From NCBI RefSeq assembly GCF_001048695.1, contig NZ_CVRB01000004.1, positions 310,001 to 374,000 of the forward strand: 64,000 nt of DNA, read 5' to 3'. Source of the DNA: Neobacillus massiliamazoniensis. GTDB lineage: Bacteria > Bacillota > Bacilli > Bacillales > Cytobacillaceae. Of the stretch, positions 4,014-55,728 are shown piece by piece (positions within the stretch are counted from its first letter, which is position 1; each line of letters opens with the position of its first letter). The notes below the pieces were generated by a model. That model worked only from the letters and a program-made list of their open reading frames with translations, was not told the DNA's origin and made no database searches. A program made the position numbers and the translations under genes.

Positions 4014-5657
4014 CTAAATTTCCTCCTTCTCCGTGTTTTCTCTTTGGAGCTTATCAACAGGCATGTGAATGTTTGTACCTGAAAAAACAGCTTCCATTTC
4101 ACGTTTCAGACCATACCAATTTTTGTTCGTATGGGCAGCTACCCAAATCTCCCCTTGTTTATGTTGAATCCAAATTCGACGATGATTCCAATATGCACCT
4201 TGTACGACACCAATCATAAAAACAATTCCACCTAATATTATTAACCACAGCGTAGAATCCTTACGAAGTGTTAATCCGGAGACATTTTTTGTTTCAATTC
4301 CTTTAAATGCCATTTTATATTCATTATTTCCAAAAGGTTCAATCGTCTGCTTGATGGCTACAAAACTAGTATCTCCTTTAGGCTTATCCGGGGCTATCAT
4401 CCGAAAGACAAAAGCTGGATTGTTCGGAATACGTGATTTTGTCGATGGTTCCCCGCTTTTGGAAAACTCAAAATCTGGAAAATAGCTCAAGAGTTCTACA
4501 GAATATCCATTTCCTAAATCATATTTTGACTTCGGATCAAAGAGATTGATTGTGAGATCTCCGTAGGATTGCCCTGTATTTTTGTTCGTTAAGGAAAATG
4601 ACATCGCATTTAGTTCGTTTGGCTTGTAATCTACCTGATATACAGAATAACCATTAAAGGTTAGAGGATCGTTTACACGGATTTTATAGTCTTTCACCTT
4701 CGTTAATTTTGGTGTTTCCCCTGGAATTCTATGTTCATCCTGCTTATAAAGGACCACATTAGATTGGTAGTTTTTGACGACATTCCCAACCCGGTTAATG
4801 GCATGCTCAAAGTTTTTATCTTTATTTTTATCATAGTTTTGCAGAATAAATTCATTATTTTTCAGATAATATTGGCCATTAGTTTCCGGTATCTCTACGG
4901 TTTCCCCTTCACGAACCCACATGACTTTATTAATGTACATTCCCGGGATAAAACGAAGCATGCATCCGATTAGAAAGATGATTAAGCCAATGTGGTTTAC
5001 ATACGGACCCCAGCGTGAGAAACGCCCCTTTTCTGCTAATAAATCCCCATTTTCTTCACGAACATGGTAGCGCTTTCTCTCTAAATGCTGTTTAATCACT
5101 TTAAGTTCATCATTATGAACATTCTGATTTACTCCAAATAAACGCTGCCGTTGTAAAAATCCTTCATGCCTTGTTACTCGCTGTGCTTTTAATGCTTTAT
5201 ACAATGGGACAACCCGGTCAAGGCTGCAGATCACAAGTGAAATCCCAATCATGGCAATCAATAATAAATACCACCAGGAGTTATATAAATCACTTAAGCC
5301 TAGTTGATAATATATCTTGCCTAACCAGCCATATTGTTGCTGATAAAACTGATCTGCTGGCATAGAAGGTGGAATAGAAATAGAGTTTTCTTGAGGAAAT
5401 ATGGTCCCGATTGCTGAAGCGATGAGGGTTAGAACAATAAGCCAAACCCCGACCTTAACAGATGAAAAGAAATTCCAAATTTTATCAACAATCGTTTTTT
5501 GATAGGTTTGAGAGCGGCGCGCACTGCCTTCATAGCGCATATCGAGAAGCTCTTTGTCATTCTCCTTTTCATCAAGCACTTTTCCACAGGCTTCGCACAA
5601 AATAGTGCCATGTGGATTCACATGCCCACATTCACATTTAACATCATTCATTGCCAA
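4014..5657 (-). CDS. resB: Cytochrome c biogenesis protein ResB
   Basis: This is a 547-residue ResB-family membrane protein, the partner of ResC in the heme lyase complex. Three transmembrane helices sit in the N-terminal half (about 70-90, 130-150, 220-240). A large extracytoplasmic region follows, and a last helix is near residue 480. The N-terminus carries a small zinc-ribbon-like motif with C8, C10, C21 and C24, as in other bacillar ResB proteins. It is the second gene of resABC, starting 15 bases after resA. Confidence 0.93.
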   Translation of the reverse strand: MAMNDVKCECGHVNPHGTILCEACGKVLDEKENDKELLDMRYEGSARRSQTYQKTIVDKIWNFFSSVKVGVWLIVLTLIASAIGTIFPQENSISIPPSMPADQFYQQQYGWLGKIYYQLGLSDLYNSWWYLLLIAMIGISLVICSLDRVVPLYKALKAQRVTRHEGFLQRQRLFGVNQNVHNDELKVIKQHLERKRYHVREENGDLLAEKGRFSRWGPYVNHIGLIIFLIGCMLRFIPGMYINKVMWVREGETVEIPETNGQYYLKNNEFILQNYDKNKDKNFEHAINRVGNVVKNYQSNVVLYKQDEHRIPGETPKLTKVKDYKIRVNDPLTFNGYSVYQVDYKPNELNAMSFSLTNKNTGQSYGDLTINLFDPKSKYDLGNGYSVELLSYFPDFEFSKSGEPSTKSRIPNNPAFVFRMIAPDKPKGDTSFVAIKQTIEPFGNNEYKMAFKGIETKNVSGLTLRKDSTLWLIILGGIVFMIGVVQGAYWNHRRIWIQHKQGEIWVAAHTNKNWYGLKREMEAVFSGTNIHMPVDKLQRENTEKEEI

Positions 5658-22028: not shown

Positions 22029-22161
22029 CGCTTTTCTTTTGTCCAGCATCAGCGCCTAGGGGCTCGGGGTCATAAGCCGTTCCGTCATGAAGGTTAAAAA
22101 CCAACCTTCAAGCCGGCTCGTCTTATGCCAGTCGCCCCTGACCAAGGCGCTTCCGCTTTTC
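22029..22161. repeat. GAAAAGCGGAAGCGCC hairpin repeat
   Basis: Read on the minus strand the element starts directly at the dacF TAA with GAAAAGCGGAAGCGCC. It runs through a long imperfect hairpin containing CAGGGGCGACTGGCATAAG and its counterpart CTTATGACCCCGAGCCCCT. Related copies lie at 46843-47112 and 49104-49246. It is inserted between dacF and spoIIAA. Confidence 0.8.
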
Positions 22162-46842: not shown

Positions 46843-47112
46843 GCGCTTCCACTTTTCTTATTGTCTAGCTCCAGCGCCTAGCCCCTCGAGGTCATAAGCC
46901 ACCTCCAAAATGAAGGCAAAAAACGCCTTCTTTTTGGAAGCGTCTTATGCTTGTCGGGGCTGATCAAGGCGCTTCCACTTTTCTTATTGTCTAGCTCCAG
47001 CGCCTAGGGGCTCGGGGTCATAAGCCAATCCGTCCTGAAGGTTAAAGAACAACCTTCATGCCGGCTCGTCTTATGCCTGTCGCCCCTGACCAAGGCGCTT
47101 CCGCTTTTCGTA
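46843..47112. repeat. Two tandem GAAAAGCGG hairpin repeats
   Basis: Two related hairpins of about 135 bases stand side by side. On the minus strand each starts with AAGTGGAAGCGCC or AAGCGGAAGCGCC and contains a GGGGC...GCCCC-type stem with CTTATGACC. The right copy begins 3 bases after the uvrX stop. The left copy has changed both arms (CCCCGACAAGC and GCTTATGACCTCGAGGGG), so pairing is retained. Confidence 0.8.
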
Positions 47113-48372
47113 TTACATTTTATGCCCGCCAACTAGTGTTGCTCGGTGCTTGGCTGTTCCCGCAGCGGTATAAGAAACGGCTCGCAATAAGGAGCCTGAA
47201 CCAAAACGTCTGCGAATAGAGTCGACCACATATCCGAGGTCCCTCCTTTTATAGGCACCCCTGTCAAAAAGGTCGAGCTGAAGCTCACGGTCATCGACAA
47301 TGTTTCCAAGGGAAAGCGAGATTTGCCTTACGGTCTTTCCGCTATAATGCTCGTGAAAAAGTTCTAAGCAAACTCGGTAAAGCTCCATCGTCACATTGGT
47401 CGGCTGCTGGATGGTTCTCGAGCGATGAAAGCCGCCGCCAAATTCATCCTGGCTGTAGCCGATGCCAAGACTAATCGTCCTTCCTGCTTTTCGATGTGTT
47501 CGTGCTCTTCGTGCTACCTCCTCACATATTTCTAAAATGACATGTTTGATTTCCTCCTCCTCTTTATAATCACGAAGAAGAATTTGACTTTTTCCAAAGC
47601 TGATTTGCCCTTGAATGATGGGTGCTCCCAAATCCGAAAGATCCACCCCCCAAGCATGGTAATAAAGCTGGTTTCCCATAATCCCAAATTTTTTCTCCAA
47701 TTTGTCCAAATCGTATCGAGCCAGCTGACCAACAGTAAAAATGCCCATGCCATTTAAGGTTTTTTCAACACGGCGACCGATTCCCCACATTTCCCTGAGC
47801 GGTGAAACACTCCAAAGCTTGTGTGGAACATCTTCATACGTCCACTCAGCAACCCCGTATTTTTTTGCTTCAAGGTCAAGGCATAGCTTTGCCATCAACA
47901 TGTTAGGGCCAATCCCAACGGCAGACGGAAGCTGGATTTCACGCTCAATATCATTTCTTATTTTCCGAGCGATAGTTTGTGCATCGCCCCATAAATGCAT
48001 GGCACCATCAACTTTAATAAAGCTTTCGTCGACACTATACACATGGATTGCTTCTTTTGGAACATAACGATTGAACACACGCGTTATTTCTGTTGAAATG
48101 CGTAAATAGGTAGCCATCTTCGGTTCAGCAATGATAATTCTGGAGTCTTTTGGAATCTCAAACAACCGGGACCCGGTTTTGATGCCAAATTCTTTTTTCA
48201 AACGCGGCGAAGCAGCAAGTACGATGCTTCCCTGCCGCTCCTTGTCGCCAACCACCGCTAAGTAGCAGTTCAACGGATCGAGGCCCTCCATAACAGCCGA
48301 ACAACTGGCATAGAAGCTCTTCATGTCGACACATAAAATTTTGTTTTGCGGCACTGTGCTGTAATCGACCAT
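47113..48372 (-). CDS. uvrX: SOS Y-family DNA polymerase UvrX/YqjW
   Basis: This 419-residue polymerase of the UmuC/DinB family has the palm motifs CVDMKSFYASC and VYSVDESFIKV (metal-binding Asp and Glu) and helix-hairpin-helix residues around GIGRRVEKTLNGMGIFTVGQL. The little-finger domain follows. The start has GGAGG upstream. Two LexA boxes lie directly upstream, so it is expected to be SOS-induced. It forms a pair with the YolD-like gene, as in B. subtilis yqjW-yqjX. Confidence 0.92.
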   Translation of the reverse strand: MVDYSTVPQNKILCVDMKSFYASCSAVMEGLDPLNCYLAVVGDKERQGSIVLAASPRLKKEFGIKTGSRLFEIPKDSRIIIAEPKMATYLRISTEITRVFNRYVPKEAIHVYSVDESFIKVDGAMHLWGDAQTIARKIRNDIEREIQLPSAVGIGPNMLMAKLCLDLEAKKYGVAEWTYEDVPHKLWSVSPLREMWGIGRRVEKTLNGMGIFTVGQLARYDLDKLEKKFGIMGNQLYYHAWGVDLSDLGAPIIQGQISFGKSQILLRDYKEEEEIKHVILEICEEVARRARTHRKAGRTISLGIGYSQDEFGGGFHRSRTIQQPTNVTMELYRVCLELFHEHYSGKTVRQISLSLGNIVDDRELQLDLFDRGAYKRRDLGYVVDSIRRRFGSGSLLRAVSYTAAGTAKHRATLVGGHKM

Positions 48373-48393
48373 ATCCTTTCCTCCAGTTTTACA

Positions 48394-48406
48394 CAAACAT
48401 TTGTTC
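48394..48406. promoter_or_regulatory. LexA (SOS) box 1 for uvrX
   Basis: On the minus strand GAACAAATGTTTG fits the bacillar SOS box CGAACRNRYGTTYC apart from the outer base. It lies 22 bases upstream of the uvrX start. Confidence 0.75.
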
Positions 48407-48445: not shown

Positions 48446-48483
48446 TATTCAATGGGAATTTTATGGATTTTTCTAAATGCGGA

Positions 48484-48870
48484 TAAAGTGAAACTTCCAT
48501 CAGTGGGGGTTTTCTTCATCCCCCACTGATGGTTAGTCCCGTTCTACTATCTCTAATATCAAGGCTAACGCCTTGATAAAGAGATAGTACGAACTCGATT
48601 GGTTCAACTAGGCCGCTGAAGGACGCAGCGGCAAGTTTCACTGTATCTCACCAATCGGGCTTTTACTACAAAAAGCGAAAGGCGTTTGCTCAGGGGCGAC
48701 TAGCATAAGGCGAAGTCATGGTGAGGCGCTCCTTGCCTCAACATGACTTTGACTTATGACTCGAGCCCCTAACGCCTGCAGCTAGATTAGGCAGTTATCA
48801 CCCACCTATCTTCCTCGCTTCTCTCTTAATCTTGAGGTGGGGGTCTTACTGCCCGTTAATGCGGGATAAA
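48484..48870 (+). ncRNA. Multi-hairpin repeat element with pseudoknot, copy 1 (387 bp)
   Basis: No ORF fits this element, which has dense complementarity. GTGAAACTT (48488-48496) pairs with AAGTTTCAC (48633-48641). CGATTGGT (48596-48603) pairs with ACCAATCG (48650-48657); the two helices cross and form a pseudoknot. Hairpins are CCATCAGTGGGGG/CCCCCACTGATGG, ACTATCTC...GAGATAGT with TATCAAGGC/GCCTTGATA inside, GCCGCTG/CAGCGGC, and a long AGGCG...CGCCT stem that resembles the GAAAAGCG repeats. A CCCGTTAATGCGGG hairpin closes the element. Strand is inferred from copy arrangement only. The copy at 54542 is about 90 percent or more identical by eye. Confidence 0.65.
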
Positions 48871-48908: not shown

Positions 48909-49097
48909 ATGGAGAAAAAACTGATTGTCAAAATGATTAAAAAGTGTTTTAAGCAATATTGTGAAGCAGATTCTTTGCCGATAAGTGAAGTAGAACTAGA
49001 GGAACTGGCCCAACGAATTCTTTTGGCGAAGGAAAAAGAACAGACGGCGGATTTATATGAGTTAATAAACGATGCAGTTTACGAATTTTTAACTTAG
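48909..49097 (+). CDS. yqzH: YqzH-like small protein
   Basis: This 62-residue helical protein, starting MEKKLIVKMIKKCFKQYCEA and ending in ELINDAVYEFLT, matches YqzH in length and C-terminal pattern as far as I can recall. GAGAGGTG precedes the ATG, and a TATAAT box lies at 48885-48890. The function is unknown. The 387-bp repeat ends 38 bases upstream, so the insertion may have changed its promoter. Confidence 0.65.
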   Translation: MEKKLIVKMIKKCFKQYCEADSLPISEVELEELAQRILLAKEKEQTADLYELINDAVYEFLT

Positions 49098-49103
49098 AGA
49101 CAA

Positions 49104-49246
49104 TAGGAAAAGCGGAAGCGCCTTGATCAGGGGCGACAGGCATAAGACGAGCCGGCATGAAGGTTGCTTTTTAACCTTCAGGACGGATTGGCTTATGACC
49201 CCGAGCCCCTAGGCGCTAGAGCTAGACAATAAGAAAAGCGGAAGGC
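49104..49246. repeat. GAAAAGCGGAAGCGCC hairpin repeat after yqzH
   Basis: The element begins about 7 bases past the yqzH stop with AGGAAAAGCGGAAGCGCCTT and runs through GGCATAAGACGAGCCGGCAT to CTTATGACCCCGAGCCCCTA and GGCGCTAGAGCTAGACAA. It is nearly identical to the right-hand copy at 46980-47112 in inverse orientation. Confidence 0.8.
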
Positions 49247-54541: not shown

Positions 54542-54929
54542 ATAAAGTGAAACTTCCATCAGTGGAGGTGTCTTTCATCCCCCACTGATGGTTAGTCCCG
54601 TTCTACTATCTCTAATATCAAGGCTAACGCCTTTATAAAGAGATAGTACGAACCCGATTGGTTCAACTAGGCCGCTGAAGAACGCAGCGGCAAGTTTCAC
54701 TGTATCTCACCAATCGGGCTTTTACTACAAAAAGCGAAAGGCGTTTGCTCAGGGGTGACCAGCATAAAGTGAAGTCATGGTGAGGCGCATTTTGCCTCAA
54801 CATGACCTCACCTTATGACTCGAGCCCCTAACACCTGCAGCTAGATTAGGCAGTTATCCCCCATCTATCTTCTTCGCTTCTCTCTCAATCTTGAGGTGGG
54901 GATTTTACTGCCCGTTAATGCGGGATAAA
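54542..54929 (+). ncRNA. Multi-hairpin repeat element with pseudoknot, copy 2 (388 bp)
   Basis: Copy 2 keeps both crossing helices: GTGAAACTT (54547-54555) with AAGTTTCAC (54692-54700), and CGATTGGT (54655-54662) with ACCAATCG (54709-54716). The first hairpin has one mismatch (GTGGAGG) and the second has one (GCCTTTATA). It lies between the yqjQ stop (54931) and the yqjQ terminator. Direction is the same as copy 1, which is antisense to yqjQ. It may be a mobile non-coding element rather than an expressed RNA. Confidence 0.65.
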
Positions 54930-54930
54930 T

Positions 54931-55728
54931 TTATTTTTTATTTAAAACTCGTTTACCAATCCGCTCAAACAGCCGTGGAAAAAGAACATAAACAACGCTC
55001 CCCATATTCATCCAACGCGGCAAATTGATTTCACGCGTTTTGGTAAGCATGCTGTCAACAACCTTCTCAGCAACATATTCGGGCTTAAGCATAAATTTTT
55101 GAACGCTTTTTACGTAGGTGCCTTTTTCGTCGGCAATGTTAAAGAAATTGGTTGCAATCGGACCGGGATTTACCGACGTAACTTGTATATGATAGTCGAC
55201 TGCTTCCATTCTTAACGCATTGGTGTAGCCAAGAACAGCGTGTTTGCTGGCAGAATAGACACTGGATTTTGGCGTGGCAATCTTTCCTGCCTGTGAAGCA
55301 ATATTGATAATATGCCCAAAGCGTCTTTCGCGCATTTTCGGCAGCACCATGCTCGTACAGGCCATTAACCCGACCACATTCACATTAAACATCCCTTTGA
55401 TTTCATCAATGGTTGCCGCATGGGCTTCACGGAAAACGCCAAACCCGGCATTATTGACCAGAATATCAATTTGACCAATTGCCGCGAAAATCTGCTTGAA
55501 CACTTCCTGTACTTGATCTGTATTAGAAACGTCCAGTTGAAAAACGGACACATTCACTTGGTACTTTTGCTGTAAATCTTTTTGCAGGAGTTCAAGCTTA
55601 TCGATGCTTCTTGCTAGTAATACAAGATTCGCACCGCTCTCGGCACAAAGCTTAGCAATTTCCGCACCGATTCCCCCGGATGCACCGGTTATCACAATAT
55701 TTTTATCTTTTAGTCGCTCTCTCCCCAT
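54931..55728 (-). CDS. yqjQ: Short-chain dehydrogenase YqjQ
   Basis: This 265-residue SDR enzyme has the cofactor motif TGASGGIG, NNAG in ILVNNAGFG, and the catalytic Ser-Tyr-Lys set in NIASQAGKIATPKSSVYSASKHA. The C-terminus is basic and may contact the membrane. It follows yqjP by 19 bases, as in B. subtilis. The substrate is unknown. Confidence 0.92.
   Translation of the reverse strand: MGRERLKDKNIVITGASGGIGAEIAKLCAESGANLVLLARSIDKLELLQKDLQQKYQVNVSVFQLDVSNTDQVQEVFKQIFAAIGQIDILVNNAGFGVFREAHAATIDEIKGMFNVNVVGLMACTSMVLPKMRERRFGHIINIASQAGKIATPKSSVYSASKHAVLGYTNALRMEAVDYHIQVTSVNPGPIATNFFNIADEKGTYVKSVQKFMLKPEYVAEKVVDSMLTKTREINLPRWMNMGSVVYVLFPRLFERIGKRVLNKK

Follow-up and report, generated by a model that had tools for sequence, protein, structure and literature searches.

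Classical MITEs are short, non-autonomous elements of high copy number with a fixed target and terminal inverted repeats, and PATEs derived from IS200/IS605 carry hairpins near both ends and use a short fixed target but have no terminal inverted repeats. HEARO and the omega RNAs of IscB and TnpB, furthermore, represent a non-coding structured segment within a mobile element. In Bacillus cereus, small interspersed repeats of 100–400 bp called BCRs (bcr1–bcr18) have been described (PMC6542083). A movement like site-specific recombination was proposed there for the bcr repeats and tied to a TTTAT motif, and the first bcr element was described as restricted to the B. cereus group (PMC6542083).

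Here, we have analyzed a 387-base element that occurs twice in a 64,000-nucleotide stretch of the genome of Neobacillus massiliamazoniensis (hereafter, the window). We assign the element, as a composite form, to a non-coding, hairpin-rich family of mobile repeats in Bacillales. It is of the bcr/MITE/PATE type, modular and without a protein of its own, and a probable nested inverted copy within it mimics a pseudoknot. Like classical MITEs, the element is short, non-autonomous, and high in copy number with a fixed target, but it has no terminal inverted repeats, its ends GTGAAACTTC and TTAATGCGGG being different from each other. It is similar to PATEs in the hairpins near both ends, the lack of terminal inverted repeats, and the short fixed target, whereas ATAAA flanks it on both sides and no Y1 or TnpB gene with matching ends was found in its own genome. 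The element is also non-coding, structured, and mobile as are the segments encoding HEARO and omega RNAs; nonetheless, it matched no Rfam family, its crossing helices do not covary, and the TnpB loci of its own genome lack these ends. The likeness to BCRs, as compared by description, lies in the small size and in the target: TTTAT is the complement of ATAAA, which is present at both flanks in 108 of our 138 elements. No description of this repeat was found in a search of the open-access literature.

The two copies of the window (copy 1, 48484–48870; copy 2, 54542–54929) are identical in 361 of the 388 aligned columns, 2 of which are gap columns, and their identity by BLAST is 94%. Also, the longest ORF starting within copy 1 has at most 41 amino acids in a listing with a lower limit of 25 amino acids. 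A first-pass annotation of the window, which had reported two nearly identical copies with no plausible ORF, was hence correct on both points. It had further noticed two crossing helices, and these were indeed reproduced: GTGAAACTT/AAGTTTCAC and CGATTGGT/ACCAATCG in copy 1, with perfect pairing of at least 9 and at least 8 bp in both copies. The 13 perfect pairs claimed for the first hairpin of copy 1 were confirmed as well, and this hairpin is not due to chance, because none of 400 dinucleotide shuffles of copy 1 reached a perfect helix of at least 13 bp. Crossing perfect helices of at least 9 and at least 8 bp also appeared in 16 of the 400 shuffles, and the crossing by itself is only modestly unusual. 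Regarding their settings, copy 1 is located between two divergent genes, those of a Y-family DNA polymerase (47113–48396, minus strand) and of YqzH (48909–49097, plus strand), and copy 2 lies, as had been annotated, between the stop codon of a gene (an SDR gene at 54931–55728, minus strand) and a terminator-like hairpin (54537–54519, minus strand). The parts of the element are summarized in Table 1.

Table 1. Positions in the window of the parts of copy 1 and of copy 2, with the observations bearing on each.
Feature	Position	Strand	Observation
Left ATAAA flank; the TAA within it is the likely duplicated target	48483–48487	+	Left ATAAA in 124/138 elements; one ATAAA at each of two empty sites in a related genus
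Strand a, GTGAAACTT, conserved start of the left end	48488–48496	+	In minimal and full elements
Left-end hairpin hpA, 13-bp arms 48497–48509/48520–48532	48497–48532	+	Two-sided changes in 10/13 pairs
Inner module, resembling an inverted form of the left part	48538–48649	-	L068 antisense: ATACAGTGAAACTT-hairpin-TTAGTTGAACCAATCGGG-hairpin-CGGGA
P2 hairpin within the inner module	48545–48589	+	Covariation
Strand b', CGATTGGT	48596–48603	+	Near-invariant
hpB hairpin within the inner module	48612–48632	+	Two-sided changes in 4/6 pairs
Strand a', AAGTTTCAC, partner of a	48633–48641	+	No covariation
Strand b, ACCAATCG, partner of b'	48650–48657	+	No clear covariation
R2, second repeat family, CATAAG...CTTATG hairpin, inserted in the element	48667–48789	+	Not in the 264-nt copy (L006/L010); approximate borders
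Right end: hairpin closed by GGCAGT/ACTGCC (48790–48795/48848–48853), then CGTTAATGCGGG	48790–48865	+	
Right ATAAA flank	48866–48870	+	Right ATAAA in 119/138 elements
Second composite copy	54542–54929	+	Same orientation as copy 1; 3' region of the SDR gene

The forms of the family have their ends in common, ATAAA-GTGAAACTTC-hairpin at the left and hairpin-GTTAATGCGGG-ATAAA at the right, with exchangeable modules in between. In the own genome of the window, 43 matching pieces were found, with 40 of 62 candidates scored and more copies hence possible; the scored candidates include five elements of the 387 type, among them a shortened one, a single element of 264 nt, eleven minimal elements, a lone right end, and pieces of a second repeat, R2. 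The minimal elements (about 130–155 nt) consist of the left part (1–54), a short spacer, and the right part (307–387), and three of the eleven are arranged in tandem. In the genus, 34 of 60 genomes matched the left 177 nt, most of them only in the left 54 nt. The inner part (48537–48656) was detected in 25 of 193 genomes of the family Cytobacillaceae, corresponding to 3 of 25 genera, and a recognizable left end is present upstream in 29 of the 30 loci with the inner part and degenerate in the other (L251). The right-end pattern was found in at least 120 stretches from many genera of Bacillales; among the matches listed are Sporosarcina, Lysinibacillus, Psychrobacillus, Rummeliibacillus, Domibacillus, Cytobacillus, Peribacillus, Neobacillus, Priestia, Terrilactibacillus, and others, in contrast to the restriction to the B. 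cereus group stated for the first bcr element (PMC6542083). The sizes of the elements fall into classes near 150, 210, 260, and 310 nt: namely, among 138 two-ended elements, 65 have 125–170 nt, 23 have 185–225 nt, 26 have about 240–290 nt, 16 are longer, and 8 are shorter, where the 138 elements are a non-random sample and no census, taken from loci of several searches, some of which were aimed at the full form. No match to the element was obtained in phages, and a single plasmid record matched, with no annotated feature under the match. The family described here is widespread in Bacillales; its ends are fixed, its modules exchangeable, and its empty sites precise.

The family spreads, and its mobility is supported by the boundaries and by sites that are empty in a relative. 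Indeed, conservation ends at the ATAAA boundaries on both sides in 131 elements, and the 138 elements are flanked by ATAAA at the left in 124, at the right in 119, and at both in 108. In deviating flanks, the change is often at the outer base, giving NTAAA at the left and ATAAN at the right, for which reason a duplication of TAA within an ATAAA target would be the best fit. Both flanks were altered identically in one of 30 deviating elements, and the concordance of the flanks across copies gave no strong signal; joint alteration of the two flanks is rare, so the support for the duplication model comes from the flank pattern and from the two empty sites that are exact. The filled and empty sites come from a genus related to that of the window species: the sites of four Psychrobacillus lasiicapitis elements were looked up in a close relative (G197, the genome that contains L136), in which the flanks are 85–96% identical and three of the four sites are empty. 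Exactly one ATAAA is present at the empty sites of L143 element 1 (GCGAATAAAATTTTC) and L113 (AACAAATAAAAGC), and at that of L143 element 2 the relative has AAA with one T missing. One ATAAA in the two empty sites and two in the filled sites would fit a duplication and an element-borne copy alike. At the fourth site, where L139 has a mini-element of 49 bp, the relative holds a longer element, and the smallest forms can thus arise by internal deletion. For copy 2, a search of 13 genomes with its flanks never found them joined. Furthermore, 5 of the 138 elements run directly into another left end with ATAA(A) in common.

Hairpins at a distance of about 9–12 nt from either ATAAA, the absence of terminal inverted repeats, and the fixed target suit a trans-acting enzyme on single-stranded hairpin ends or a process like site-specific recombination. 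We propose that an enzyme acting in trans would recognize the two hairpin ends and insert the element at an ATAAA-like target; an empty site with one ATAAA would then become a filled site with ATAAA on both sides, the TAA being duplicated inside the target. A possible but rather doubtful version of this idea is that the element is of the PATE type of the IS200/IS605 kind, with a Y1 transposase reading the two hairpins on one DNA strand. The absence of terminal inverted repeats and of an ORF, the hairpin about 9–12 nt from each end, and the short fixed target are all consistent with this assignment, and Y1 genes are found in 57 of the 60 genomes of the genus. Nonetheless, Y1 genes are so nearly universal that they fail to tell the genomes that have the repeat (34 of 60) from those that lack it. 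Also, the 7 Y1 and 6 TnpB matches of the own genome, together with flanking sequence of up to 1.5 kb in both directions, as far as the contig reaches, have no similar ends at E values up to 10, as judged with end models that were built from a loose pattern and may include inner modules and whose antisense hits were left unused. An apparent duplication of TAA is not known to be typical of the IS200/IS605 family, either.

A partner that might supply the enzyme was sought at unpaired ends. Among 162 left-end matches in 120 loci, 144 have a right-end match within 420 nt, and in 7 of these the right-end match is 2–3 nt away and is read as belonging to an abutting neighbor element. Some of the 18 unpaired left-end matches are inner modules on the other strand, and the three that were inspected for an autonomous partner (L222, L140, and L120) are lone or decayed ends, with no enzyme gene at L222. 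Neither an enzyme nor an autonomous copy was found at the Y1 and TnpB loci of the own genome or at the inspected lone ends. A Y1 gene near the lone right end L280 in the own genome was considered as a partner but was dropped, as the two are separated by an unrelated gene. Apart from this, many genomes of the genus have a protein of about 200 amino acids with a Y1 domain (match near 5–119, about 40–60 bits), which is unlike the short IS200 transposases. In the own genome, this type is not recognizable among the 7 Y1 matches.

As to the crossing helices, they most likely arise from an upside-down copy of the left part nested in the element. The strands a (GTGAAACTT) and b (ACCAATCGGG) both belong to the left part and are also present in minimal elements, which have neither a' nor b'; in typical minimal elements, furthermore, a and its hairpin are followed by TTAGTTGAACCAATCGGG, exactly so in 16 of 33 clean ones. 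When the segment from TTAGT to CCAATCGGG in the 264-nt form is read in antisense in L068, a 264-nt relative, it runs ATACAGTGAAACTT-hairpin-TTAGTTGAACCAATCGGG-TTCGTAC-hairpin-GAACGGGA, which is the same plan as that of a minimal element including a right-end-like CGGGA. A profile of the 33 clean minimal elements, all lacking the inner module, matched the antisense of L068 over model positions 1–75 with 11.9 bits. With the inner modules alone, 39 of the 58 full elements gave a collinear antisense match (38 of them with a score of at least 5 bits) and 19 gave none, as compared with a match in 99 of 1160 controls in which the helix strands were kept and the other letters shuffled (40 of them with a score of at least 5 bits) and in none of 1160 modules that were shuffled throughout. 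TTAGTTGAACCAATCGGG is found in the inner antisense strands within two substitutions in 45 of the 58 and exactly in 22. TGAA, which precedes b in minimal elements, was found before the outer b in none of the 58 full elements, and the inner unit was never seen standing alone. On this comparison, the inner module resembles the inverted left part beyond the helix strands, the likeness being modest.

If a unit a...b is nested between a and b in the inverted orientation, the strands follow one another as a-b'-a'-b and thus form two crossing helices with no selection for a pseudoknot. The first-pass annotation had argued that crossing pairing is unexpected from a simple inverted repeat, but a nested inverted copy yields exactly this order, and the inner module resembles one. 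The 264-nt form would have been produced by a second, related short element (a left-type and a right-type hairpin) nested in the inverted orientation between TTAGT and CCAATCGGG, and this nested copy would have created the crossing helices; R2 would then have been inserted before the right hairpin in this genome to give the 387-bp form. We consider it probable that a protein-less mobile repeat of high copy number has given rise to the element as a composite copy, whose nested inverted copy makes the crossing helices. This explanation is at odds with some of the observations: a' and b' are among the most conserved parts, which is not required of a mere relic, the third empty site is off by one base, and the inverted similarity is modest. 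An inverted copy nested in its own kind would be a simple route to crossing complementary strands that needs no selection for a pseudoknot.

Covariation was then counted along the predicted helices, with no correction for the relatedness of the elements. In 32 aligned full elements, 108 cells were changed on both sides as compared with 32.2 after shuffling (0 of 500 shuffles as high), and 27 of the 28 pairs with two-sided changes are in local hairpins. In the crossing helices, for which compensatory changes had been proposed as a check, these were seen in 0 of 9 pairs of a/a' and 1 of 9 pairs of b/b' among the 32 elements, where the strands vary little. With 58 elements, the crossing helices stayed near the shuffled level (1 versus 0.8 and 4 versus 2.2 cells), and the local hairpins were far above it (46 versus 14.9 in hpA, 53 versus 13.2 in the outer P2 stem, and 35 versus 11.5 in hpB). 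Because the strands of the crossing helices hardly vary, the test on them is low in power. The set of 32 comprises 32 of the 58 rows; a 34-row set omitted 24 of the 58 rows judged to be decayed or partial (L076, L077, L079–L084, L088–L100, L248, L251, and L252), and the alignment is without L134 (no anchor), the truncated or contig-end elements L087/L250 and L239, and second entries of places already represented. In 17 rows from other genera, the mean majority frequency is 0.987 in a', 0.994 in b', 0.987 in a, 0.912 in b, and 0.985 in the linker TGTATCTC, and it is 0.84–0.89 in the hairpin arms. The strongest remaining case for a role of the inner module comes from the constancy of a' and b'.

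Such a role would be that of a pseudoknotted RNA (or single-stranded DNA) cofactor needed by the mobilizing enzyme, with the crossing helices under selection, which we regard as unlikely. In its favor, a' and b' are near-invariant in other genera while the hairpin arms change compensatorily, L068 (264 nt, without R2) folds with a z of about -10, and b'/b forms in the minimum-energy fold of L068. Neither crossing helix covaries beyond the shuffled level, however, and changes at the outer pairs of b are mostly unmatched in b'; a and b occur without their partners in minimal elements, and the class of 125–170 nt is the largest (65 of 138) although the sample is enriched for full elements. There is no G·U bias and no Rfam match, either. 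It would be similarly improbable that the nested inverted left part has been kept as a pseudoknotted single strand, RNA or DNA, guiding or licensing a recombinase. If a cofactor of this kind were real, protein-less elements would carry their own nucleic-acid cofactor as exchangeable modules.

With the nested inverted copy as the preferred origin, the element would need no role as RNA. The two strands of L068 fold equally well, both far better than their shuffles (z of -9.8 and -11.4). G·T and A·C mismatches are almost equal over all helices (124 versus 125) and number 47 and 35, respectively, in hpA (119 elements, of 135 distinct hpA); a hairpin whose importance lies in DNA, or in whichever strand, would be expected to show such parity. 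An Rfam scan matched no family, the window giving none at the gathering score. At E values up to 10, the element gave 5 Rfam matches, all far below gathering, and six element-bearing loci gave nothing but a T-box elsewhere in L135. The first-pass annotation had read the element as a structured RNA or an RNA-mobilized element; its non-coding, structured, and spreading nature stands, as seen from the empty sites and the covarying local hairpins, but the step from crossing helices to RNA is not supported, and a pseudoknot or RNA function of the element, while conceivable, is unsupported.

In terms of genes, none of the 74 elements classified between two ORFs lies inside an ORF. An element lies within 30 nt downstream of a stop codon in 26 of the 74, as compared with 217 of 1535 non-coding ATAAA control sites. 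An ORF of 80 or more amino acids has the left TAA as its stop codon in 18 of 98 elements, as compared with 116 of 5802 ATAAA sites, some of these ORFs being short and possibly not genes. Where the TAA of the left target is the stop codon of the upstream ORF (e.g., L113 at 4142–4454, L118, L139, and L115), the insertion keeps the stop. The excess just downstream of stop codons and the left TAA doubling as a stop would also be expected of a regulatory or terminator element of the host that is kept at gene ends. This is nonetheless very improbable, as copy 1 is between divergent genes, copy 2 precedes an existing terminator-like hairpin, and three of the four sites are empty in the relative; avoidance of ORFs and promoters can, furthermore, account for the excess.

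In copies of the 387 type, R2 is bordered by CTTTTAC and GGCAGT; the 264-nt copy does not contain it. It is a separate hairpin repeat with the plan GGGGCGAC..GCATAAG...CTTATG..CGAGCCCC, and elsewhere in the window there is a copy at about 49108–49230 and copies or pieces near 47066–47115 and 22118–22160. An identification of R2 as "bcr1" was considered but was dropped, as no plasmid match was obtained. By eye, R2-like sequence is also seen inside the element family in other genera, at the same place in L238, and an R2-like repeat interrupts the element at another place and in another orientation in L247. Modules of other kinds were noticed as well. In Psychrobacillus and Filibacter (L113, L118, L123, and L143), an extra hairpin module with CAGGACG motifs is placed in the loop of the left hairpin, and modules with CGTCCTG follow the left hairpin in other genera; these complementary motifs suggest possible loop–loop contacts. 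Finally, L110 and L173 (contigs of Heyndrickxia and Caldibacillus) have an almost identical sequence in common that finishes with the right end, and they differ in their left parts, which is perhaps a case of a captured right end.
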